A stretch of 42,032 bases of DNA from a virus: IMG/VR virus record IMGVR_UViG_3300049617_000051, positions 1-42,032 of that record; one strand, 5' to 3'. Positions within the stretch are counted from its first letter, which is position 1; the number at the start of each line of letters is the position of its first letter. Positions 5,303-42,032 of this stretch are shown here, piece by piece. The notes under the pieces are model-generated. The model saw only the letters and a list, made by a program, of their open reading frames with translations. It did not search any database and was not told the DNA's origin. The position numbers and the translations under genes are program-made.

Positions 5303-6343
5303 GTGAAAGACAATTTCGAGAAGCTAGGCGATGTCGCGGGCGGAATGGTGGCGGGGATGAGCGCTTGCCGGGCGGTTGAAACCCGTGTTCCCTCTTCGCG
5401 AAAGGAATGGCTGTCCGATCGCCGCTCGACGATCGGCGCCAGCGAGCTTCCTGCGCTGTTTGGGGTACATGCGCATATGACGCCTTTCGAGTTGTTCGCA
5501 ATCAAGAGCGGGCAATATCGCCGCGAGTTCCGCGAGGCGGACATTCGTGAAAACTCTATTCATCTCCCGCCTACCGAGCGCGGCAACGCCCTCGAACCCG
5601 TTGCGTTCGAATTGCTCCGACGGCTCCGGCCGACATGGTCGGTCATTCCCAACCAAATCCCCGGCGGCCAAGTCTTCGTCGATACCCTATCTCGAATGTC
5701 CAGCACTCCCGACGCCTTCCTGATCGACCCCACCCGCGAGGGACGCGGGAGCTTTCAGGTCAAGAGCATGGCATCCTCGATCTTTGACCGCGATTGGAAG
5801 CCGAATGGCGAGCCCGAACCGCCGGTCGCAGTTGCTATCCAAGCGATAGCCGACGCAACCCTTTCCGACTGCCGATGGGCGTGTGCCGGCGCGATCGTAG
5901 CTGGCTATGGGATAGACCTCTATCTGTTCGATATTCCGCTCCACGCCTCGCTCATGGCAAAGGCTCGCGGGTTGGTGGCCGACTTCTGGGATCGCATCGA
6001 AGACGAGCGGCCTTATCCTCCGGACTTCGCTCGGGACGGCGCGGCTATTGCCGCGATTTATGCGGACGACGACGGCACGGAGATCAACCTAGCGAGTTCC
6101 AACCGCATCACTGAGGTCGTCGCTCGTCGAGAGGAATTGAAGGCGATCGAGACGGCAGGAAGCGCAGCGGAAAAAGAGCGGAAACTCCTCGACGACGAAC
6201 TTCGCTTCGCGCTGGGGAATGCGACGCGCGGTCGATTGGCGGACGGTCGGATCGTGGAAGCCAAGGTCGTCAAACGGCGGGGCTTCACGGTCGAGCCCTC
6301 ACAGTCCAGACCGGTCAAGATCAGGGAAAGCAAGTCAGCATGA
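5303..6343 (+). CDS. YqaJ-type viral recombination exonuclease
   Basis: This 346-residue protein has the core of the YqaJ/lambda-exonuclease family: STIGASELPALFG (~42-54), RGNALEPVAFELL (~92-105), the acidic STPDAFLID (~133-141), the Q-x-K step FQVKSMASS (~151) and a Gln-bearing helix AVAIQAIADATL (~176). In this family the motifs bind metal and degrade one strand of double-stranded ends for phage recombination by annealing. The start is GTG at 5303, 13 nt after the previous stop, with GGAGAG in front. The C-terminal third is a charged helix (AAEKERKLLDDELRFALG). Its stop overlaps the next start (ATGA), pairing it with the protein at 6340. The family call is confident; activity is inferred. 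Confidence 0.8.
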   Translation: MKDNFEKLGDVAGGMVAGMSACRAVETRVPSSRKEWLSDRRSTIGASELPALFGVHAHMTPFELFAIKSGQYRREFREADIRENSIHLPPTERGNALEPVAFELLRRLRPTWSVIPNQIPGGQVFVDTLSRMSSTPDAFLIDPTREGRGSFQVKSMASSIFDRDWKPNGEPEPPVAVAIQAIADATLSDCRWACAGAIVAGYGIDLYLFDIPLHASLMAKARGLVADFWDRIEDERPYPPDFARDGAAIAAIYADDDGTEINLASSNRITEVVARREELKAIETAGSAAEKERKLLDDELRFALGNATRGRLADGRIVEAKVVKRRGFTVEPSQSRPVKIRESKSA

Positions 6344-8373: not shown

Positions 8374-9816
8374 ATGGGCAAGTATACCAAAATTGAGTGG
8401 GCTGACGCAACGTGGAATTGCATTCGGGGATGCTCCCGCGTCTCGCCAGGGTGTGGAGGCCCCGGCAAGCACGGCGGATGCTACGCGGAGGCCATCGCAG
8501 CGCGATTCAGCGACCCAGGCCAACCATTCCATGGCTTTGCCGAAAGAACAGCCAACGGCCCTCACTGGACCGGGAAAGTGGAATTGGTAGAGGACAGATT
8601 GACGCTACCTCTCAAGTGGCGCAACCCGGCCCGCATTTTCGTCAGTTCGACGTCCGACCTGTTCCATGAGAAATTGCCGGACGCATGGATCGACCGCGTC
8701 TTCGCAGTGATGGCGCTCGCGCCGCAACACACGTTCCAATGCCTTACGAAAAGATCGAAGCGGATGCGGGAATATTGCAGCGACGAGAATACGCCGTTCC
8801 GAATTGCCCAAGCGATCGACGCCATGCAGGGTGATGACGTCGGCCCCGAAGAGATACGGCCAATCTCCGGCTATCCGGGCTACTTCGCATCATCTCTAGG
8901 CGTTATCTACACAGAACATCGTGGCCCGCGCCGCGCCATGAAGCCGGACGTTGGTGAGCAGGGTCACAGCCGCGTTCAACTGCATCGCGAGGGTGCTGGA
9001 CGTTATGGCGATAGGCTCCTAGTTCACAGGGTCATCTTGGAAACGTTCGTTGGTCAGGCCCCGATGCTTGAAACGCAAGGCCGACATCTCGATCGCAATC
9101 CGCAGAACAACGCCGCACGCAATCTTCAGTGGGGCGATCAGCCGTCGAACTGGCAAGACAGTAAGCGTCACGGAACGCATCGCCGATATTCCAAGTTGAC
9201 CCAAAGCGACGCGAACGCGATTCGTCAGCGGCACGCTGCTGGCGAAACTGGCGAAGCGCTCGCGCGCGAGTTCGACATCTCTGCCACGCAAATCCGCAAC
9301 ATCGCCTCCGGTCGGCAGTGGAACGTTGAGCCTCCGATCTCTTGGCCACTCGAAAATTGTTGGCTCGGCGTCTCCTGCGAAGATCAGACCCGTGCCGACG
9401 AGCGCATCCCCGACCTGCTCGCGACCCCGGCGGCCGTGCGGTTTATTTCGGCAGAGCCGCTGTTGGGCAGAATCGATTTCAAATCGTGCTGGTTGAGCCG
9501 GATGACGCTTTGCGGCCATTGTCCGTCTTCAGACGAAGGGACGCCTATCACGTGCGAATGCGCCAACGAGCGCCTCGATCAAATCATCGTAGGTGGTGAA
9601 TCCGGCCCATGCGCGCGCCCGATGCAGGTCGAATGGGCGCGGTCTATCGTCAAGCAATGCCAAGCCGCCAGGGTTTCTGTGTTCGTGAAACAGATGGGCG
9701 CTAATCCGGTATGGAGCGATGGCGCGTTCCTCAATCTTCGCGACCGCAAGGGCGGCGATATGGCCGAATGGCCGGAAGATTTGCGGGTGCGCCAAATGCC
9801 GGGAGCGCAGCCATGA
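8374..9816 (+). CDS. DUF5131 (Gp37/Gp68) protein with in-frame HNH endonuclease insertion
   Basis: The 480-residue protein is much longer than a usual DUF5131 protein (about 250-330). Residues 1-~158 give the family N-terminus: KIEWADATWNC, a Cys cluster (CIRGCSRVSPGC, GGCYAEA) like an Fe-S binding motif, and IFVSSTSDLFHE. Residues ~317-480 give the C-terminus (WPLENCWLGVSCEDQ, VRFISAEPLLG, IIVGGESGPCARPM). Between them, residues ~159-316 are a complete NUMOD4-HNH_3 homing endonuclease: EIRPISGYPGYFASSLG, HRVILETFVG, the H-x-D...N...N core (GRHLDRNPQNNAARNLQW) and a NUMOD-like HTH (ALAREFDISATQIRNIASG). No intein splice residues are seen, so the product is probably one fused chain. DUF5131 proteins are radical-SAM-like; their phage role is unknown. 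The start has no strong ribosome site. Confidence 0.8.
   Translation: MGKYTKIEWADATWNCIRGCSRVSPGCGGPGKHGGCYAEAIAARFSDPGQPFHGFAERTANGPHWTGKVELVEDRLTLPLKWRNPARIFVSSTSDLFHEKLPDAWIDRVFAVMALAPQHTFQCLTKRSKRMREYCSDENTPFRIAQAIDAMQGDDVGPEEIRPISGYPGYFASSLGVIYTEHRGPRRAMKPDVGEQGHSRVQLHREGAGRYGDRLLVHRVILETFVGQAPMLETQGRHLDRNPQNNAARNLQWGDQPSNWQDSKRHGTHRRYSKLTQSDANAIRQRHAAGETGEALAREFDISATQIRNIASGRQWNVEPPISWPLENCWLGVSCEDQTRADERIPDLLATPAAVRFISAEPLLGRIDFKSCWLSRMTLCGHCPSSDEGTPITCECANERLDQIIVGGESGPCARPMQVEWARSIVKQCQAARVSVFVKQMGANPVWSDGAFLNLRDRKGGDMAEWPEDLRVRQMPGAQP
8848..9321 (+). mobile_element. HNH homing endonuclease domain inserted in DUF5131 gene
   Basis: The segment encodes NUMOD4, HNH_3 and a C-terminal DNA-binding repeat in the order found in free-standing phage HNH endonucleases, in frame within the host gene. 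The flanks match the uninterrupted family at a loop before WPLENCWLG. The boundaries are estimated to within about 15 bases from where the DUF5131 pattern stops and resumes. Confidence 0.65.
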
Positions 9817-11160: not shown

Positions 11161-11366
11161 CGCGCCGCGCCGCCACCGTCACCCAGGCCGAGATCACCCG
11201 CGTTGTAAAAGCCGTGCAAGCGGCGGGTGTCGTCGTAGGCAGGATCGAGGTTGACGCCAACGGCAAGATCATCGTCACATCGGCCCCACCCGGCGCGGCA
11301 ATGCCGCCAGCGGATGAGTTCGAGGCCTGGGAGGCCAAGCGTGCGAGTTTGTCTCAAAGGGATTAA
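11157..11366 (+). CDS. Small protein upstream of the integrase
   Basis: A protein of 69 residues beginning MTRRAATVTQAEITRVVKAV, start in an ATGA overlap. It has the pattern of a short strand/helix protein (VGRIEVDANGKIIV) with a C-terminal FEAWEAKR tail. I recall close relatives immediately upstream of tyrosine integrases in rhizobial phages. An excisionase role is possible from position only; no winged-helix excisionase pattern is visible. It overlaps the integrase start by 26 bp. Confidence 0.6.
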   Translation: MTRRAATVTQAEITRVVKAVQAAGVVVGRIEVDANGKIIVTSAPPGAAMPPADEFEAWEAKRASLSQRD

Positions 11367-12408
11367 GCGCACGACAACACGGCTCGCTGATGGTAGCCGC
11401 GTGACCTATTATTATGCTTGGCGGGGTGGCCCTCGCCTGCCGGGCAAGCCAGGGAGCGCAGAATTCGGCGCGGCCTACAACGCTGCCATCGCGCAGGCCC
11501 GGCCGAAGCGACACGACACGCTAGCCGCGATCCTCGACGCGTACCGAGACTCAGAGGCTTTCCGCGGGTTGGCGCCGCGTACGGCTGTAGACTACGAAAA
11601 GCACCTCGGCGCTATCGGAAAAGAATTCGGCGACCTCCCCATTTCTCTTCTCGCGGACAGGCGGGTGCGGGCGAAGTTCCTGGGTTGGCGCGACGAAATT
11701 GCCCGCAATAGCCCAAGGGGCGCGGATTACGTCTTTGCTATCTTCGCGCGCGCGCTGTCGTGGGCGCTCGACCGCGGGCTCACAGCAGCCAACCCGCTTG
11801 AAAAGCCGGGCCGGGTCTGGAAAGGCAACAGAAAAGACGCCGTCTGGGGGGACGTCGAGGAAGCGAACATGCGCGCCGCCTCTGGCCAAGCGCTGCGGCT
11901 CGCCATGACGTTGGCGCTTTGGACGGCCCAACGCCAGGGGGACATCCTCCGCATGACCTGGGCGGCCTACGATGGCCAAACGCTGCGCGTGCGCCAGGGC
12001 AAGACCCACGCGCAACTCATCATCCCCGTGAGCATGGCATTGAAAGCAGAACTCGACGCGGTGCAACGGGACGGCCTGTACATCATCAGTCATGGCGGAC
12101 GCCCCTACACGTCCGATGGGTTCCGGTCGGTTTGGAGCAAGGCCGCCGAGCGCGCCGGCATCGAAAAGTTGACGTTTCACGACCTGCGGGGGACCTTCGC
12201 GACCCGTGCTTACGAATGCGGCGCGACCGACGCCGAGGTCGCGGCCGTGACCGGCCACGGAGCTGTCGGGCAGGCGCACGCAACCCTCCGGCGCCACTAC
12301 CTACACCTCAATCTCGCGCTCGCCCGAGAATGCATCCGCAAGCTCGAAACGCGAACAAAGTTGGCAAACGTTTTGGCAAACGGCCGCGCAATCCAGGGCT
12401 CGAAGTAA
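11341..12408 (+). CDS. int: Tyrosine-family phage integrase
   Basis: A 355-residue protein from GTG 11341. The N-terminal arm and core-binding domain (TLAAILDAYRDSEAFRGL, to ~165) precede the catalytic domain, where all active residues are visible: Arg in LWTAQRQGD (~198), Lys in RQGKTH (~221), H-x-x-R in FHDLRGTFATRA (~280-283), His in TGHGAVG (~306) and the nucleophile Tyr in RRHYLHLN (~320). It recombines attP with a host attB. The 45-nt tRNA-Lys 3' end 20 bp downstream is its probable core site. The start is the first one after the upstream conserved gene; a longer frame back to 11251 lies inside that gene and looks non-coding. Confidence 0.88.
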   Translation: MRVCLKGIKRTTTRLADGSRVTYYYAWRGGPRLPGKPGSAEFGAAYNAAIAQARPKRHDTLAAILDAYRDSEAFRGLAPRTAVDYEKHLGAIGKEFGDLPISLLADRRVRAKFLGWRDEIARNSPRGADYVFAIFARALSWALDRGLTAANPLEKPGRVWKGNRKDAVWGDVEEANMRAASGQALRLAMTLALWTAQRQGDILRMTWAAYDGQTLRVRQGKTHAQLIIPVSMALKAELDAVQRDGLYIISHGGRPYTSDGFRSVWSKAAERAGIEKLTFHDLRGTFATRAYECGATDAEVAAVTGHGAVGQAHATLRRHYLHLNLALARECIRKLETRTKLANVLANGRAIQGSK

Positions 12409-29175: not shown

Positions 29176-29205
29176 TTGACATCCTTTGTTTGATTGACCT
29201 ATCGT
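29176..29205 (+). promoter_or_regulatory. Candidate promoter of the reversed island
   Basis: TTGACA (29176-29181), an 18-nt spacer and TATCGT (29200-29205), or CTATCG with 17 nt, lie 135 bp before the rightward gene at 29340. The area just downstream has partial repeats of CTATCG and GCGAT that may be an operator. This would give the island its own transcription, opposite to the late genes. Confidence 0.45.
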
Positions 29206-29339: not shown

Positions 29340-29909
29340 ATGAGAGACGTTACGATCGCGATTGAGGGAATCACGCCCTACTCCGCGTCCATTCCGATCG
29401 AAGACGCGTTCCTGAAAGGCGAATCCAGAGACGAGCACGAAAAGCGCCGATGGCGTGAGAAGGCTCATGTCGACGACCGAGGCGTCGTGTTCATTCCTGG
29501 CGTTTCGTTCAAGATGGCCCTAGACGAAGTTGCCGGAGTGCTGAAGGAGAAAATCAAAGGCAAAGGCAACTCGACTTGGACCGCTCAGTTCAAGACCGGC
29601 GTTACCGCGATGAGCGACCTTTCTCTCGGCATCAAGATCGACGACGTGAAATCGATCGCGCTCTACTGCAACGCCGACGGCCGCCGCGGCTCAGGCACGC
29701 GCGTATGGCGATATTTCCCGATCATCCCGACATGGCGGGGCGCCTTGGATATGCGGGTTTTCAACGACACGCTGTCGACGGAGGTATTCGAGAGGTACTT
29801 CGAACAAGCCGGCATTTTGGCCGGCGTCGGCCGGGGGCGCCCGATAACAGGGTGCGCAGCCGGGAACGGACGATTTAGGCCAGTCGCCTTCGACTGGAAG
29901 GACAGTTGA
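29340..29909 (+). CDS. Reversed-island protein A, RAMP-like pattern
   Basis: A protein of 189 residues from ATG 29340, preceded by AGGAGA with 5-nt spacing. Blocks: VTIAIEGITPYSAS at the start, HEKRRWREKAHVDDRGVVFIP, FKMALDEVAGVLKEKIKGKG, GTRVWRYFPIIPTWRG, VFERYFEQAGILAGVGRGRP and a final NGRFRPVAFDW. I recall many phages with proteins of this type, usually unannotated. The paired Gly/Arg-rich loop near the C-terminus and the strand-rich layout recall the RAMP (Cas7-like) fold, but this is a weak impression. It is transcribed against the late genes and is followed directly by a pentanucleotide array. Function unknown. Confidence 0.65.
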   Translation: MRDVTIAIEGITPYSASIPIEDAFLKGESRDEHEKRRWREKAHVDDRGVVFIPGVSFKMALDEVAGVLKEKIKGKGNSTWTAQFKTGVTAMSDLSLGIKIDDVKSIALYCNADGRRGSGTRVWRYFPIIPTWRGALDMRVFNDTLSTEVFERYFEQAGILAGVGRGRPITGCAAGNGRFRPVAFDWKDS

Positions 29910-29910
29910 C

Positions 29911-30152
29911 ATCGCACCGCATCGCATCGTGCCACCTCGCTCCGCAACGCCCCGCGCCGCAACGCGCCGCCGCGCGCCGCAACGCATCGCATCGCTCCGC
30001 AACGCAACGATTCGTTTTGGCATTTTTCCGACGCCTCGCACCGCATCGCACCGCATCGCACCGCCGCGCCTCGCGGCGCATCGCAACGATTGTTTTAGCC
30101 CTTTCCCAACGCATCGCTTCGCGCCGCGTCGCGCCGCCTCGCAACGCAACGT
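29911..30152. repeat. Degenerate pentanucleotide array 1 (CGCNN)n
   Basis: About 36 five-base units, CGC followed by two variable bases (CGCAT, CGCAA, CGCAC, CGCTC, CGCGC ...), by my hand parse. The array is broken by two non-repeat cores: 30003-30034 and 30082-30112. The second reads CGCAACGATT then GTTTTAGCCCTTTCCCAACGC, and is identical at 30 of 31 positions to a core in array 2 (30735-30765). It fills the whole gap between the two island genes. No coding signal is acceptable here on either strand. Confidence 0.85.
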
Positions 30153-30179
30153 CCGCATCAGACCAGGAGCCCTTGAACC

Positions 30180-30671
30180 ATGCGCCCAATCTTCAGCCGG
30201 TCGGTCGAAACAAGAAAACTCCTCGATCTGTTCGAGGGCGCCAGCATCGACACGCCAATCTCGTTCGCCGACGCGAGCCGTAAGCTCGGGTTCGCTATCA
30301 CCTCGACCAGCGGCTCGTACCACTCAGCGCGTCGCATCGCGGTCAAGGAGTGTGGGATCGTCATCGAGGCCATCCGAAACTTTGGCTTTGTTCGGCTCTC
30401 CGGCTCAGGCATCGTCAAGCGCGGAGACTCCCACGATGGCGCGTTGCGCAGGCGGGCTCGCCGGGCTGGCGATGAAATGGCGATCGCGATCGTGCAGAAC
30501 CTCGATCGAGAAGAGATGCAATCCGCGACCGAGAAACTGTCGCGCTACCGGATCGTCTCCGATCTGACTTCGCCAGCCAAGGCAGCTTCGAACCGCCTCG
30601 TCACTCAAGAGCCAGAACAACAGGAACCCGTCGACATTCGCGCCAGATTGCGCACCGTCGGCAAGAGTTGA
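30180..30671 (+). CDS. Reversed-island protein B, HTH-like phage protein
   Basis: A protein of 163 residues from ATG 30180 with AGGAG 10 nt upstream, directly after array 1. The N-terminal half reads like a winged helix (RKLLDLFEGASIDTPISFAD, ARRIAVKECGIVIEAIRNFGFVRL) and the C-terminal half is a basic helix (GALRRRARRAGDEMAIAIV) with a disordered tail. I recall related phage proteins starting with FSRSVETRKL. It is likely a nucleic-acid-binding partner of protein A. Array 2 follows its stop. Confidence 0.6.
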   Translation: MRPIFSRSVETRKLLDLFEGASIDTPISFADASRKLGFAITSTSGSYHSARRIAVKECGIVIEAIRNFGFVRLSGSGIVKRGDSHDGALRRRARRAGDEMAIAIVQNLDREEMQSATEKLSRYRIVSDLTSPAKAASNRLVTQEPEQQEPVDIRARLRTVGKS

Positions 30672-30673
30672 CA

Positions 30674-30836
30674 ACGCCGCGCATCGCATCGCTTCGCTCC
30701 GCCCCGCTCCGCCTCGCAGCGCTCCGCGCCGCTCCGCAACGATTGTTTTAGCCTTTTCCCAACGCTCCGCGCGTCGCTCCGCAACGCAACGCCCCGCGCC
30801 GCCGCGCTTCGCTTCGCATCGCAACGCATCGCAACG
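30674..30836. repeat. Degenerate pentanucleotide array 2 (CGCNN)n
   Basis: About 27 CGCNN units around one core (30735-30765), which matches the core of array 1 at 30 of 31 positions. The array starts 3 nt after the stop of protein B and ends CGCAACG-TTTTT next to the stop of the leftward connector gene (30845). The T run at the right edge might end rightward transcription. Confidence 0.85.
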
Positions 30837-36188: not shown

Positions 36189-36842
36189 TCACGACCAGAA
36201 CGGCCCGCGTGGCCTAATTCGCGCGTCGCACCGCAGGAACACGCCGTCGACTTGCAACAGCGATCCGCGCTGGTCGCGGTGCATCTGCTCGTCGATGTCG
36301 AAGAGCGCGAAGCCGTGCTCGTTCATGTAGCTCATGACGTCGCCCATGAGCGGCGCGCCCTCGTTATATTCGACGAGAGACATTTCAATCACGAAAGCAT
36401 CGACGCCGCTCATCTCGCTGTAGCCGTCGAGCACGTCTAGTTCTGCGCCTTGCACATCAAGCTTGACCAGATTGAACCTCTGTTTTAGCAGCTCGTCGAG
36501 CGTCTGCATTTGCATGAGCCGCTCGACCATCGGGAAGTCCGAGCGTTCCCGATATACGGACGACCCTGTCTTGCTGAGCGACGGCCGCGCATCGGTATCG
36601 GCGACGTGAAACGTGATTTCGCGCTCGGAGTGCCCGACGAGCGCCGTTACAAAAGCTGCGTCGATTTCCTCGCACACCCAAGCCAGGACGGGCGCGCATT
36701 CGGCTAAGGCCTCGATCATGAGGATACTGGCCTTCGGAAATATCCGGCGCGCGACCTTGGCGAAGGCGCCGGCGTGCGCGCCGACGTCGAGGATCGCGGC
36801 CGGCGCGAAGCCGAGGGCGGCTAGGCGTTCGAGAGATTTCAC
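36189..36842 (-). CDS. FkbM-family methyltransferase
   Basis: A protein of 217 residues from GTG 36842, in a GTGA overlap with the glycosyltransferase fusion. The SAM-binding motif is AILDVGAHAGAFAKV (~16-30), then ILMIEALAE, and the FkbM hallmark LVKLDVQGAELDVLDGY (~139-155). FkbM enzymes methylate sugar hydroxyls in many surface and antibiotic glycans. Coupling to the glycosyltransferase strongly suggests methylation of the glycan it makes. It lies between the fibre-like and protease genes of the late operon. No membrane segment or export signal. Confidence 0.8.
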   Translation of the reverse strand: MKSLERLAALGFAPAAILDVGAHAGAFAKVARRIFPKASILMIEALAECAPVLAWVCEEIDAAFVTALVGHSEREITFHVADTDARPSLSKTGSSVYRERSDFPMVERLMQMQTLDELLKQRFNLVKLDVQGAELDVLDGYSEMSGVDAFVIEMSLVEYNEGAPLMGDVMSYMNEHGFALFDIDEQMHRDQRGSLLQVDGVFLRCDARIRPRGPFWS

Positions 36843-38515
36843 TCGGCCGCCTTCGGCAGAGCCCGCGCGGCGCATGCCTCGTCGATCAACGCGCGCCATT
36901 CATCGGCGCGGGTAGTCCAGTCGTAGCGAGCGTGCGCCCATGCGCGCTGCTCATCGAAGTTGCGCGTCCGGACGTGCTTGATCTCACTCTTCACTGCAAA
37001 GGCGAAGCCGCGCGCATGTGTCATCGGATCGTTCGAGGGCTCGTACAGCGTCGCCAAGCCGCCGCAGGTCTCCTCAAGCGCGCCGTAGCGCGGGCAAATG
37101 ACGTGACACCCCGCCGCCAGCGCTTCGATCACCGAAATGCACGACGTCTCGGCGAACGTGCAGGGATACGCCAGAATGTCGATACCGCGCAGCGCGGCGC
37201 GTACGACGTCGTTCGGCTCGACGCCGTGGAAAAACACGCCCGGCAGCGACCTCGCCCTATTGTACAGTGTTTCGAACTTCCGGTCCGCCTCGGCTTGGTC
37301 GGGGCCGTAAAGCCGCATCGACGACCAGATGTGCAGTTCGGCCGTGCCGGGCGGCAGTTTGGCGATCTCCCAGGCCGCGAGCAGCACGTCGAGCCCGCGG
37401 AACGGCGTCGAGGTGTACGCCAGCTTCACCGGGCCAGTGCGCGGCGGCAACGGCGAGAGGTCCACCTCGGTCGCGTTGCGCAGCACGCGGCATTTGGCCG
37501 GATCGACGTCGAACGCGGCTATATACCGGTCGCGCTGCCATTGGCTGACGAAGACGAAATAGTCCATCACATCCCGCAGCGGATGCAGGGGGTTGTCGCG
37601 GCGGACGAGCCACTGCGCCGCTTCCTGGTCGATGTCGCAGTGAATCCAGCAAATCTGGGGCTTGTTCGCACTAAACGTGACAACGCTTCGCGCAGTCGCG
37701 GTTGGATAGTTGACGTGCAACTGCACCCGGTCGAGCTCGTCGCCCAGCCTCGCCTTCAGGCCCTCGACCATCAGCTCAGTCCCGCCGAGCGGCCGATCCG
37801 GCGACCATCCCGGAGCACTGACGTTGATCAGCTTCCCGTCTTGCGACCTTAGCCAATCCCCGAACTTGCCGCTGAAAGTCTTCGTCCCCGTGTGATGCAG
37901 CATCAACTCCGGATCGACCCACACCTTGCCACCGAGGTCGCGCCAGCGCCGGCAGAAGGTGTAATCCTCCGAGAAATATTGATGCTGCTCGGCGACCAAA
38001 TCAAAATCGAAGAAGTCGATGATCTTCATGCCCGGCGCTGTCATGTCCTCGTACCAGCGATCCTTGCGCGCGGCGGCGATGCTCTCGATCGCGCGGCGGT
38101 TGATGCGAAGGAAGCCGGCGGGAACGCCCTCGACTTCCATCAGGCCCGACGCAGGCTCGAACGTGAGCTCGTTCCCGATCGGCTTGAGCACGAACGGCGG
38201 GTTGATGTTGTCGCCGCGCGCGGGATAAGCGCCGGCCACGACATCGACGTCATGGCTGACGAGCCGCGTGATTGCGCCCTGCTGCCAGGCGACGTCGTCG
38301 TCGACCATGATCATATCGGTGAAGGTGGACTCAAGGAACGTCGTCGCCAGCACATTGCGGGCGCGGGTTACCATCGAATCGCCGCAGCGCATGACGACCG
38401 ATATCTCCCAACCAAGCGCGGCGCACTCGGCCGCGCTGCCCATCAACGCCATGACGAGCGTGTGGTCGAGCTTGCCTGAATAGCAGGTGACAGCGAACAT
38501 GACGCGTCGCGACAT
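36839..38515 (-). CDS. Two-domain glycosyltransferase (GT-A plus GT-B)
   Basis: A protein of 558 residues from ATG 38515 (GGAGG, 5-nt spacing). Residues ~1-225 are a GT-A domain with D-x-D in MIMVDDDVAWQ (~72-74), VDVVAGAYPARGD, FSEDYTFCRRW and HHTGTKTF, paralogous to the protein at 27412-28203. Residues ~240-550 are a GT4-like GT-B domain: GGTELMVEGLKARLG, CRVLRNATEVDLSPL, VKLAYTSTPFRGLDVLLAAWE and the E-x7-E motif in FAETSCISVIEALAAGC. One chain could thus add two sugars in turn. It is translated with the FkbM methyltransferase and lies within capsid genes. Confidence 0.82.
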   Translation of the reverse strand: MSRRVMFAVTCYSGKLDHTLVMALMGSAAECAALGWEISVVMRCGDSMVTRARNVLATTFLESTFTDMIMVDDDVAWQQGAITRLVSHDVDVVAGAYPARGDNINPPFVLKPIGNELTFEPASGLMEVEGVPAGFLRINRRAIESIAAARKDRWYEDMTAPGMKIIDFFDFDLVAEQHQYFSEDYTFCRRWRDLGGKVWVDPELMLHHTGTKTFSGKFGDWLRSQDGKLINVSAPGWSPDRPLGGTELMVEGLKARLGDELDRVQLHVNYPTATARSVVTFSANKPQICWIHCDIDQEAAQWLVRRDNPLHPLRDVMDYFVFVSQWQRDRYIAAFDVDPAKCRVLRNATEVDLSPLPPRTGPVKLAYTSTPFRGLDVLLAAWEIAKLPPGTAELHIWSSMRLYGPDQAEADRKFETLYNRARSLPGVFFHGVEPNDVVRAALRGIDILAYPCTFAETSCISVIEALAAGCHVICPRYGALEETCGGLATLYEPSNDPMTHARGFAFAVKSEIKHVRTRNFDEQRAWAHARYDWTTRADEWRALIDEACAARALPKAAE

Positions 38516-39731: not shown

Positions 39732-40520
39732 TCAGAAGGTAACGTGCGGCGAAACTGCACAACGGCAGCGCGGATGCTGCGTCGGCGCAGAAACGCCGCC
39801 TACAAAATTCACGTCGAGGTCCAGCGGGCCTTGGGCTGCATTTTCGTCGCAAATCTCGCACACACGCTCGCCGGGCGCGACCAACCACACTTTGCGAACC
39901 TGGACGCCGTTGCCGCGTATCGCCCGATAGCCCGCGAGCGCGCCCTCGCTGTTGGCGTTGGCAATCTCGGTGTTGGCTATCAGCGCCGCACGTGCGGACC
40001 CGAAGGCCGGCAAGCCGTCGGCGTCGCCGATGCCTTCGATGTCGCCGGCGATCTGCACCGCTGTTCGGCCGGTCGCCAAGCCTTCCGACACCGCCTTACG
40101 CACGGCGTCGCGGGTAGTCTCGTCGACGCCCGACACCAGGTCCGCCACCCGTCTCGTCGCCCATGTCGCGGCGCGCGCGTTGATCTGGTTGAAGATCGTA
40201 TCCTGCTCGGGTCCGATCTCGCCGCCGATCGCGACGTGCACTTGCGAGTACCCTGCGTTGCCTGAGACCGCGCTGTAGTTGGCGAGCGCCTCTCGCACCG
40301 CGTACGCTTCTTCGTCGGTCAGGCTATCGCCCAATGCGTCGAGCGCATCCTCGACGATCCTATTGTCGTCCTCGGCCGAGGAGGCCTTACCCGACTGGAT
40401 AGCCCGCAAACGCTTTGCGACCCGCGAACTTTGGCGAGAAAGCGCCACCGCCCACGACGAGGCAATCGTTACAGTAGCATCGTTGGTCGTGTTGCGCGGA
40501 TGCGCCACCGGCGGTAGCAA
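39732..40520 (-). CDS. Mu gpF/SPP1 gp7-like head morphogenesis protein
   Basis: A protein of 262 residues, start assigned to TTG 40520. Helical N-terminal part (SRQSSRVAKRLRAI), ATRRVADLVSGVDETTRDAVRKAVSEGL, ARAALIANTEIANANSEGALAGYR, then the conserved Cys/His end GERVCEICDENAAQGP and QHPRCRCAVSP, typical of the phage Mu F-like minor head protein domain. It acts with the portal in prohead assembly. Its first 134 bp overlap the 3' end of the portal gene in another frame, which is a long overlap; either the portal has an extra C-terminal tail or the true start is further in. Confidence 0.75.
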   Translation of the reverse strand: MLPPVAHPRNTTNDATVTIASSWAVALSRQSSRVAKRLRAIQSGKASSAEDDNRIVEDALDALGDSLTDEEAYAVREALANYSAVSGNAGYSQVHVAIGGEIGPEQDTIFNQINARAATWATRRVADLVSGVDETTRDAVRKAVSEGLATGRTAVQIAGDIEGIGDADGLPAFGSARAALIANTEIANANSEGALAGYRAIRGNGVQVRKVWLVAPGERVCEICDENAAQGPLDLDVNFVGGVSAPTQHPRCRCAVSPHVTF

Positions 40521-42032
40521 CTTCCCGCCCGAGAAAGGTCGTGGCGGCCTTGCCGACCCCCGGCGGCTTTGCGGGAGGAGCCGGGGGCGGCGTGGTCGCG
40601 GCGGCGTGAGCCGCGGAGAGCTGGTCAGGGACGGCGAGCGCCTTCTGCCGGTTGGCTTCGATCGTCTCTGCGATCGGGACGGGCCCGTTGACCGTGTCGA
40701 CCGTCAGCTCGTCGCCGCCTTCGAGCGCCTCGAGCCCGAGCTGGTCGCGGCCCTCGTTGCGGGTGAGAACGCCTTCCTTAGTAAACCCGGTGATCACCTG
40801 CATCTGGATCAGCGGATTGACGTCCGGCTCTTGCTGATATTTGAATTCGAGGTCGTCGTAGCCGAACCCGATGTCCTCTTGGATCAGCGGGTTCATAATC
40901 TCTTGGCGGAACCAGTCCAGCGTCGGATGCAGGCCTTCCTCTTCCGAAGCCTCCTGTGCGCTCTCTGCCGTGGCGCGATTGACGGCTCGAATGAACGGCG
41001 TCGGCGACACGGAATAGGCAAAGCAGACGATGCGCGTCAGCCACTCGTCGATGTCGGCCTTGAGGCCTTCGCCGTTGGCGTTCTTGATGTCGAATGGCTT
41101 CATGCCATCAGGGACGAAACGGATGCGCGACTTGGTGGCTTGGTTGCCGGCCATCAGAGCGTCGAACATCGCTTGCCATTGCGCAAGCTGCTGAGGGTTC
41201 CACCCTTCGGGAACCGTCATTATCATTTCCGGCATCGTGCCCTCTTTCCAGAAGAGGGCCTGATACTGCGCGCGCGAGATGCCGGAGATGATCTCGGTGA
41301 CAATCTGCTCGACGGGCGAATTGCCGCACCAAGCGGGCTTACCGTTCCTGCGGACGTAAACGATTCCGTTCGGCACAGACACGCAGTGCACCGTCCCCTC
41401 GTAAGGCGTCGGCTTGATCTTGAAGCCCATGGCCTTCGAATATCGCACTCTCACAGAATAACAGTCTCTGACGTTGCAGAGATTGCCGACAATCCATTGC
41501 TTGCCTTTACTCACACGCTTGTAGACGGACGCTGACCATCCGAGTTTTTGCGCCAGCTCCACAAGTTGCCCTGCCATGCGTTCACTGACGGTCGTAACTC
41601 TTACGCCGGGCTGGCCGACGCGACCGCGACCGCTGACATTTTTGCGCACAGCGAACGAACCATCACCGAGAACATAATAGTCCCAGAACAATTTGATCTG
41701 ATGCTTGGGTGCGTTCATGATTTCGTCGGGAATGAACTTCTCGTGCGCAAGCCCGAACTGACGGAAATGCTCGGTCATGCCGCAGCGTGCGAAGACAAAA
41801 GCTCGCCCGGTGTGCTGCGCGGGCCCCCCGAGCACTCTTGCCGCAAGCGCAGCATAGGGCGCGAAGCCCTTCGAGGTCTCTTTCTGAGCAATTTCTATCC
41901 CGCCAGCGCTCCGAACGTTGCCCTCGGCGAGATACGCGCCCATGAGGGCGCAATAATCGTCACCCGAGAGAGATACCGTCTTCCCTTGCATGCTCGACGC
42001 AGGGACAGTTATATTTCTCAAGGACCCAGCAT
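40387..42032 (-). CDS. Portal protein, partial, interrupted by an intein
   Basis: The frame is open to the right edge, so the N-terminus is missing. Downstream of the intein, residues from 41319 read SPVEQIVTEIISGISRAQYQ, FWKEGTMPEMIMTVPEGW, KSRIRFVPDGMKPFDI, EWLTRIVCFAYSVSPTPF and NRATAESAQEASEEEGLHPTL, all recognisable portal blocks (wing/stem region). The intein splits the YGxSPVEQ motif. The C-terminus is Pro/Ala-rich and continues to 40387, overlapping the next gene by 134 bp. The portal forms the dodecameric DNA channel of the head. A TTG at 42021 in the intein is not a true start. Confidence 0.8.
   Translation of the reverse strand, partial: AGSLRNITVPASSMQGKTVSLSGDDYCALMGAYLAEGNVRSAGGIEIAQKETSKGFAPYAALAARVLGGPAQHTGRAFVFARCGMTEHFRQFGLAHEKFIPDEIMNAPKHQIKLFWDYYVLGDGSFAVRKNVSGRGRVGQPGVRVTTVSERMAGQLVELAQKLGWSASVYKRVSKGKQWIVGNLCNVRDCYSVRVRYSKAMGFKIKPTPYEGTVHCVSVPNGIVYVRRNGKPAWCGNSPVEQIVTEIISGISRAQYQALFWKEGTMPEMIMTVPEGWNPQQLAQWQAMFDALMAGNQATKSRIRFVPDGMKPFDIKNANGEGLKADIDEWLTRIVCFAYSVSPTPFIRAVNRATAESAQEASEEEGLHPTLDWFRQEIMNPLIQEDIGFGYDDLEFKYQQEPDVNPLIQMQVITGFTKEGVLTRNEGRDQLGLEALEGGDELTVDTVNGPVPIAETIEANRQKALAVPDQLSAAHAAATTPPPAPPAKPPGVGKAATTFLGREVATAGGASAQHDQRCYCNDCLVVGGGAFSPKFAGRKAFAGYPVG
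41320..42032 (-). mobile_element. Intein with LAGLIDADG endonuclease in the portal gene (partial)
   Basis: At least 237 codons lie upstream of the C-extein. LAGLIDADG-type motifs are DYCALMGAYLAEGNV (near 41950) and IKLFWDYYVLGDG (near 41690). The C-terminal splicing block is VHCVSVPNGIVYVRRNGKP-AWCGN, followed by Ser as the +1 residue (41319-41317). The penultimate residue is Gly where His is usual; the terminal Asn is intact. The N-terminal splicing block lies beyond the window. Confidence 0.78.

Follow-up and report, generated by a model that had tools for sequence, protein, structure and literature searches.

A CGCNN guide-array locus, very probably a VIPR system, in a temperate alphaproteobacterial phage

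Positions 29340-30836 of the IMG/VR record IMGVR_UViG_3300049617_000051 (42,032 nucleotides, analysed at full length and referred to here as the window) very probably constitute a VIPR system. This cargo lies within a late operon that belongs to a temperate alphaproteobacterial phage and runs on the other strand, and its guides of variable nucleotide pairs (NN), read with a 1-nt skip, would direct repression. VIPR, discovered in 2026 and suggested to be ancestral to class 1 CRISPR, is described in the main text of its report as a Vipr protein with vrRNAs of alternating GGY triplets and NN pairs followed by a 3' tail (PMC13142463). According to the same text, double-stranded DNA is recognised by the NN pairs, which skip one target nucleotide each time, mostly at codon wobble positions, so that competing elements are repressed, and carriers of type II include phage SUSP1 and a Pseudomonas fulva prophage (PMC13142463). 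Four observations underlie the assignment of the window locus: the homology of gene A to RAMP proteins, the linkage of gene A, gene B and the arrays, the combination of hypervariable NN with a fixed CGC triplet, and the 1-nt-skip targets of a related system. From these, we infer transcription, RNP assembly, repression and this phage's own guide targets. The locus was picked out from the raw sequence, without prior knowledge of VIPR.

Phage context and layout of the arrays

The phage appears to be temperate, since the window encodes a tyrosine integrase (11251-12408) and a YqaJ-type recombinase domain (5303-6343). Other features of the window include a portal protein gene with an internal LAGLIDADG domain (40387-42021; likely an intein), a DUF5131 protein split by an HNH endonuclease region (8374-9816; likely an intein or homing insertion), and a large late-region protein (36839-38515) resembling glycosyltransferases from phages of rhizobia, Caulobacter and Pelagibacter.

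Whole CGCNN arrays occupy 29913-30149 and 30675-30834, on one strand. A scan of both strands of the 42-kb window for seven consecutive exact CGCNN units gave 29 matches, all on the + strand and confined to 29938-30142 and 30675-30832, with none elsewhere. The lag-5 CGC count reaches its maximum of 15 per 100 nt in the arrays, and the opposite-strand GCG lag-5 count, taken as background, is at most 4 per 100 nt anywhere in the window. The CGCNN arrays of the preliminary description are thus real, being unique in 42 kb, restricted to the + strand and well over the period-5 background. Its count of two arrays does not stand, however, as five guide tracts of 8-19 repeats each are read in phase, with gene B and the cores lying between them; the first begins at 29913, directly 3' of the gene A stop codon (29909).

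All tracts and junctions lie on the + strand. Guide tract 1 (29913..30007) reads NN = AC AT AT GC CT TC AA CC GC AA GC CG GC AA AT AT TC AA AA, with strict CGC only from 29938 and CGT and CAC variants 5' of that position. It is followed by junction 1 (30008..30031), formed by the 3' tail of guide 1 and the 5' leader of guide 2 and compared with the junctions of other loci; this is the diverged core (30003-30034), which on direct reading carries a 1-nt insertion. Guide tract 2 (30032..30086; NN = CT AC AT AC AT AC CG CT GG AT AA) leads into junction 2 (30087..30109), directly read as CGATTGTTTTAGCCCTTTCCCAA and representing the first near-identical core, and guide tract 3 (30110..30149; NN = AT TT GC GT GC CT AA AA) ends shortly 5' of gene B. 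Beyond gene B, guide tract 4 (30675..30739; NN = CG AT AT TT TC CC TC CT AG TC GC TC AA) is separated by junction 3 (30740..30764), the directly read second near-identical core, from guide tract 5 (30770..30834; NN = GT TC AA AA CC GC CG TT TT AT AA AT AA), after which comes CGTTTTTAATT.

Direct reading confirms the previously reported near-identity of the cores at 30082-30112 and 30735-30765 (one mismatch in 31 bp) and the existence of a diverged third. These cores had been taken as the strongest hint of function, a view that must be reversed: they are junctions between consecutive tracts (a 3' tail plus the next 5' leader) rather than isolated elements, and thus constant guide ends, with the information carried by the variable NN. 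In the tracts of the window and of other loci, the final repeats at guide 3' ends are mostly AA, and the tail recurs within the window. Folding analysis of the window tracts revealed no conserved structure in the guide tails, and the tracts are less structured than shuffled sequences of the same dinucleotide composition (z +1.6 to +2.2). No match to Rfam families, hammerhead ribozymes included, was obtained in the window region or in six array loci. A candidate sigma-70-like promoter lies 5' of gene A (29176..29205, +; TTGACA, 18 nt, TATCGT), identified by a consensus match of 10/12 for which 0.4 are expected in shuffles.

A small RAMP protein and a predicted DNA-binding partner

Gene A (29340..29909, +; 189 aa) is, judged by family profile and modelled fold, vipr, encoding a small RAMP/Cas7-like protein predicted to bind RNA. 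When the A-family profile was compared with all PDB chains, the single match was 36pp, 'SUSP1 Vipr protein' (E 4.2e-15). The AF2 model of gene A (pLDDT 95) has Csm3/Cas7 RAMPs of types III-A and VII as its top Foldseek matches (E down to 1.3e-7), and profile and fold together agree with the definition of Vipr as a RAMP with an RRM core and a glycine-rich loop. Residues G158, G162, R167 and G177 are invariant in the A family, all 37 of whose members match phrog_4652, a family of unknown function. No match to the gene A product was found in cultured phages by tblastn, nor any to the CGC-type Vipr of one array locus (L047) in cultured phages and plasmids. A broad Vipr alignment proved too diverse to serve for locus search.

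Gene B (30180..30671, +) is a putative vap-like accessory gene, as suggested by its recurrence beside arrays and by its predicted structure. The AF2 model (pLDDT 90) has a winged helix-turn-helix topology with a long helical tail and gives weak Foldseek matches to MarR/PadR-type regulators, and the product is therefore predicted to be a DNA-binding helper. With 40 array loci and a winged-helix model, the B family resembles the DNA-acting accessory (vap) genes that adjoin vipr.

CGCNN arrays in other viruses and prokaryotes

CGCNN arrays form a class that extends well beyond this phage. Scanning IMG/VR for ten CGCNN units yielded 101 stretches, 89 of which have variable NN. Homologues of gene A accompany ~71 of these 89 loci, often together with gene B; they lie inside the fetched stretch in 51 of the 89 and elsewhere in the record for 20 of 36 remaining loci. 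Vipr was not seen in ~18 of the 89, many of which are short fragments. Protein clustering of the array loci produced two outstanding families, corresponding to genes A and B of the window: the A family occurs in 54 loci (within 60 nt of an array in 45) and the B family in 40 (array-adjacent in 34). Control records with simple repeats (n=11) gave no strong match to A and three weak ones. The concern that arrays might be absent beside homologues in related phages is thereby removed, as dozens of contigs carry arrays next to homologues of the two genes. Most matches in the prokaryote collection are simple (CGCAA)n repeats, found in several unrelated genera (e.g. Pasteurellaceae, Neisseria). Variable arrays occur in six contigs, from Roseomonas, Rhodospirillales, Ancalomicrobiaceae, Paracoccus and two Nitrospira-group MAGs, and gene A is present in 6/6 prokaryote genomes with variable arrays versus 0/2 without.

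The arrays fill transcribed intergenic gaps, from ~0-15 nt after a stop codon to ~10-40 nt before the next start. The CGC strand agrees with both neighbouring genes in 95 cases and opposes both in 14, as assigned with a simple gene caller. CGC makes up 3885 of ~4260 in-phase triplets, with CTC, CAC and TGC the chief deviants, and tracts outside the window mostly comprise 8-16 repeats. The nearest copies of genes A and B (77% and 61% amino acid identity) are neighbours in an Ancalomicrobiaceae MAG. Since they are adjacent there and the fetched array loci contain nothing equivalent to the window's structural genes, the pair moves as cargo. The exact window core has no match in viral contigs.

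Several loci show distinctive layouts. L050 carries thirteen CGCNN tracts in series on the - strand (from ~3.9 to 1.4 kb of the locus), mostly parted about every 150 nt by hairpins (GGCCAGCCCCGCGAGGGGCTGGC, GGTGCC..GGCACC) without an Rfam match, and L091 has a similar hairpin-spaced arrangement. In L049, a very short ORF that has a ribosome-binding-like site (ATG ACT TTT GCG ACA GGC CCA TGA; MTFATGP) parts the guide tracts and occurs three times with small changes. Low-diversity CGCNN arrays with weak Vipr-like matches only (E ~1e-5), possibly very divergent Vipr proteins, are found in L020, L057 and L070.

Natural targets of a Paracoccus relative

The targeting code was tested with guides of the CGC-type system of P. 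litorisediminis, whose Vipr is 42% identical to that of the window, by searching 125 Paracoccus genomes. Read with a 1-nt skip, guide P3 has six sites at ≤2 mismatches, including two perfect 20/20 sites (~0.001 expected in random sequence). Four of the six lie at the same codons of the prophage terminase gene GpA (two 20/20, one 19/20, one 18/20). Controls with skip 0 and skip 2, run for P3 only, gave no sites in the 125 genomes. With the same 1-nt skip, guide P1 has 77 perfect 22/22 sites (counted from the table of matches), which vary among themselves only at skip bases; the target copies that were read are serine recombinase genes, matched antisense at the motif VDVVVVYKIDR. For guide P4, 26 sites were found at 2-3 mismatches in genes of the serine recombinase family; they fall on IYTRKSSEEGL, the motif of the catalytic serine, which is 210 bp away from where P1 matches. 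Since the serine recombinase sites are homologous, the P1 and P4 counts represent one or two events, not 100, and the terminase target of P3 is evidence separate from them. The skip base coincides with codon wobble in the Paracoccus targets. Three guides of this relative are thus directed with a 1-nt skip at competing mobile elements, and its natural targets obey the 1-nt-skip code. The carrier genome's own serine recombinase (G024:C45:183394-183635) has two and three mismatches to P1 and P4, as if self-targeting were avoided. An exact 1-nt-skip scan of viral contigs with P4 gave no matches.

Equivalent exact scans of viral contigs with window guides 1, 2, 4 and 5 found no targets, and 397 Hyphomicrobiales genomes searched at 3 mismatches gave one match for guide 4 and two for guide 1, about chance level. 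For an uncultured phage, such an outcome is unsurprising. A search of fetched loci (~1.0 and 1.6 Mb) with 279 guides at skips 0-3 gave no real target signal; the zero-mismatch skip-3 matches there most probably stem from arrays that were left unmasked and matched themselves.

The matches of the Paracoccus guides make it highly improbable that the arrays are instead an RNA scaffold on which a TRAP-like oligomeric protein, or the gene A product, binds one CGC per subunit to control the phage's own genes, with NN as spacers. Sites of TRAP (trp RNA-binding attenuation protein) have fixed triplets every five or so nucleotides, a pattern that the arrays reproduce, and their intergenic position on the transcribed strand would suit such a regulator. 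However, spacers would neither give perfect gapped matches in mobile-element genes nor follow codon positions, and for the Paracoccus relative the code test refutes this reading. TRAP (PF02081) is moreover absent from 23 array records, in a search whose control detected it in B. subtilis.

Still less probable is an array of DNA sites for recombination, packaging or replication, bound by the product of gene A or B. Although YqaJ, ERF or RecT-like genes occur near some related loci and the gene B model looks DNA-binding, array orientation strictly follows transcription, gene A encodes an RNA-binding RAMP on the evidence of profile and fold, and the NN are guide-like. Of the two options first put forward, an RNA or a DNA element, the RNA scaffold with variable pairs has therefore been retained, with CGC as the scaffold and NN as the targeting letters, and the DNA binding-site array is not supported.

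Turnover and composition of the guides

Among loci with Viprs 75-98% identical, guides at the same position share NN letters at 0.23-0.27 identity, against 0.26 by chance, and CGC is unchanged; the letters are wholly replaced even where Viprs are 97% identical. A passive pentanucleotide expansion that later mutated is scarcely credible, since simple (CGCAA)n repeats do exist in unrelated genera but their records lack gene A, three weak matches aside, and near-identical relatives keep CGC fixed with NN at chance. Guides facing changing targets would fit this pattern. The initial view of a selected element that is neither a CRISPR, an iteron nor a microsatellite is accordingly upheld by the retention of CGC at chance NN identity and by the linkage to genes A and B. 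Across 279 guides, NN composition correlates with reversed codon positions 1-2 (r 0.71 versus 0.32 with genomic dinucleotides), a resemblance that is suggestive only.

Proposed mechanism and significance

In the proposed VIPR mechanism, each CGCNN tract would be transcribed as a vrRNA, along which Vipr subunits, by homology, may align, gripping the CGC triplets so that the NN pairs are exposed. These pairs would base-pair in register with double-stranded DNA, leaving one unpaired base per pair (NNxNNx...), and the complex, bound to a gene of a rival phage, prophage or satellite, would block its transcription, with gene B (vap) possibly assisting as a DNA-binding helper. Carrying the locus thus probably enables a virus to silence competitors. 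With the code test on the Paracoccus relative, the noncontiguous NN code is seen to hold on a different scaffold triplet, which renders testable the recognition of triplets by Vipr, the orthogonality of different triplets and the identity of the rivals of these uncultured phages. The Paracoccus guides also add natural targets, namely two serine recombinase spots and a prophage terminase. Perhaps, though the case stands somewhat short of even, CGC/NN marks a hitherto undescribed type of VIPR that recognises its triplet in its own way, Vipr lineages having evolved mutually orthogonal triplets under the same 1-nt-skip NN code.

Comparison with known systems

Simple (CGCAA)n phase-variation repeats are alike in unit length and CGC content, but have invariant units and no Vipr. 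TRAP sites are alike in triplet spacing; here, in contrast, 23 array records gave no TRAP homologue and the NN carry target information. Class 1 CRISPR RAMPs (Csm3, Cas7; types III-A and VII) have their fold and glycine-rich loop in common with gene A, whereas the window locus has no CRISPR repeats or spacers, a noncontiguous guide and one small RAMP. A class 1 CRISPR-Cas assignment was rejected, given the 5-nt period, the gapped code and the presence of only genes A and B beside the arrays.

Relative to the VIPR systems described in the main text of PMC13142463, the locus differs in its triplet (CGC versus the published GGY), in a Vipr that is only distantly similar in sequence, in guide ends of CGCAACGCAACG followed by a T-rich tail, and in gene B, whose product has a winged helix and is only a putative relative of the published vap proteins. 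A CGC scaffold is not mentioned in that main text, which states that the triplet may also follow 'a related consensus (fig. S17)', a figure of the supplement (PMC13142463). As its triplet is not GGY, the window system is classed as a VIPR variant, and would be a plain VIPR member if fig. S17 contains CGC. The likenesses to the published systems are nevertheless extensive: a phage-borne small RAMP with an accessory gene, guides that flank and sit between the genes, tandem 5-nt repeats of a fixed triplet with hypervariable NN (8-19 repeats in the window, ~9-16 in VIPR), and, as seen in the Paracoccus relative, a 1-nt-skip code with the skip at codon wobble and competing mobile elements as its targets (PMC13142463).
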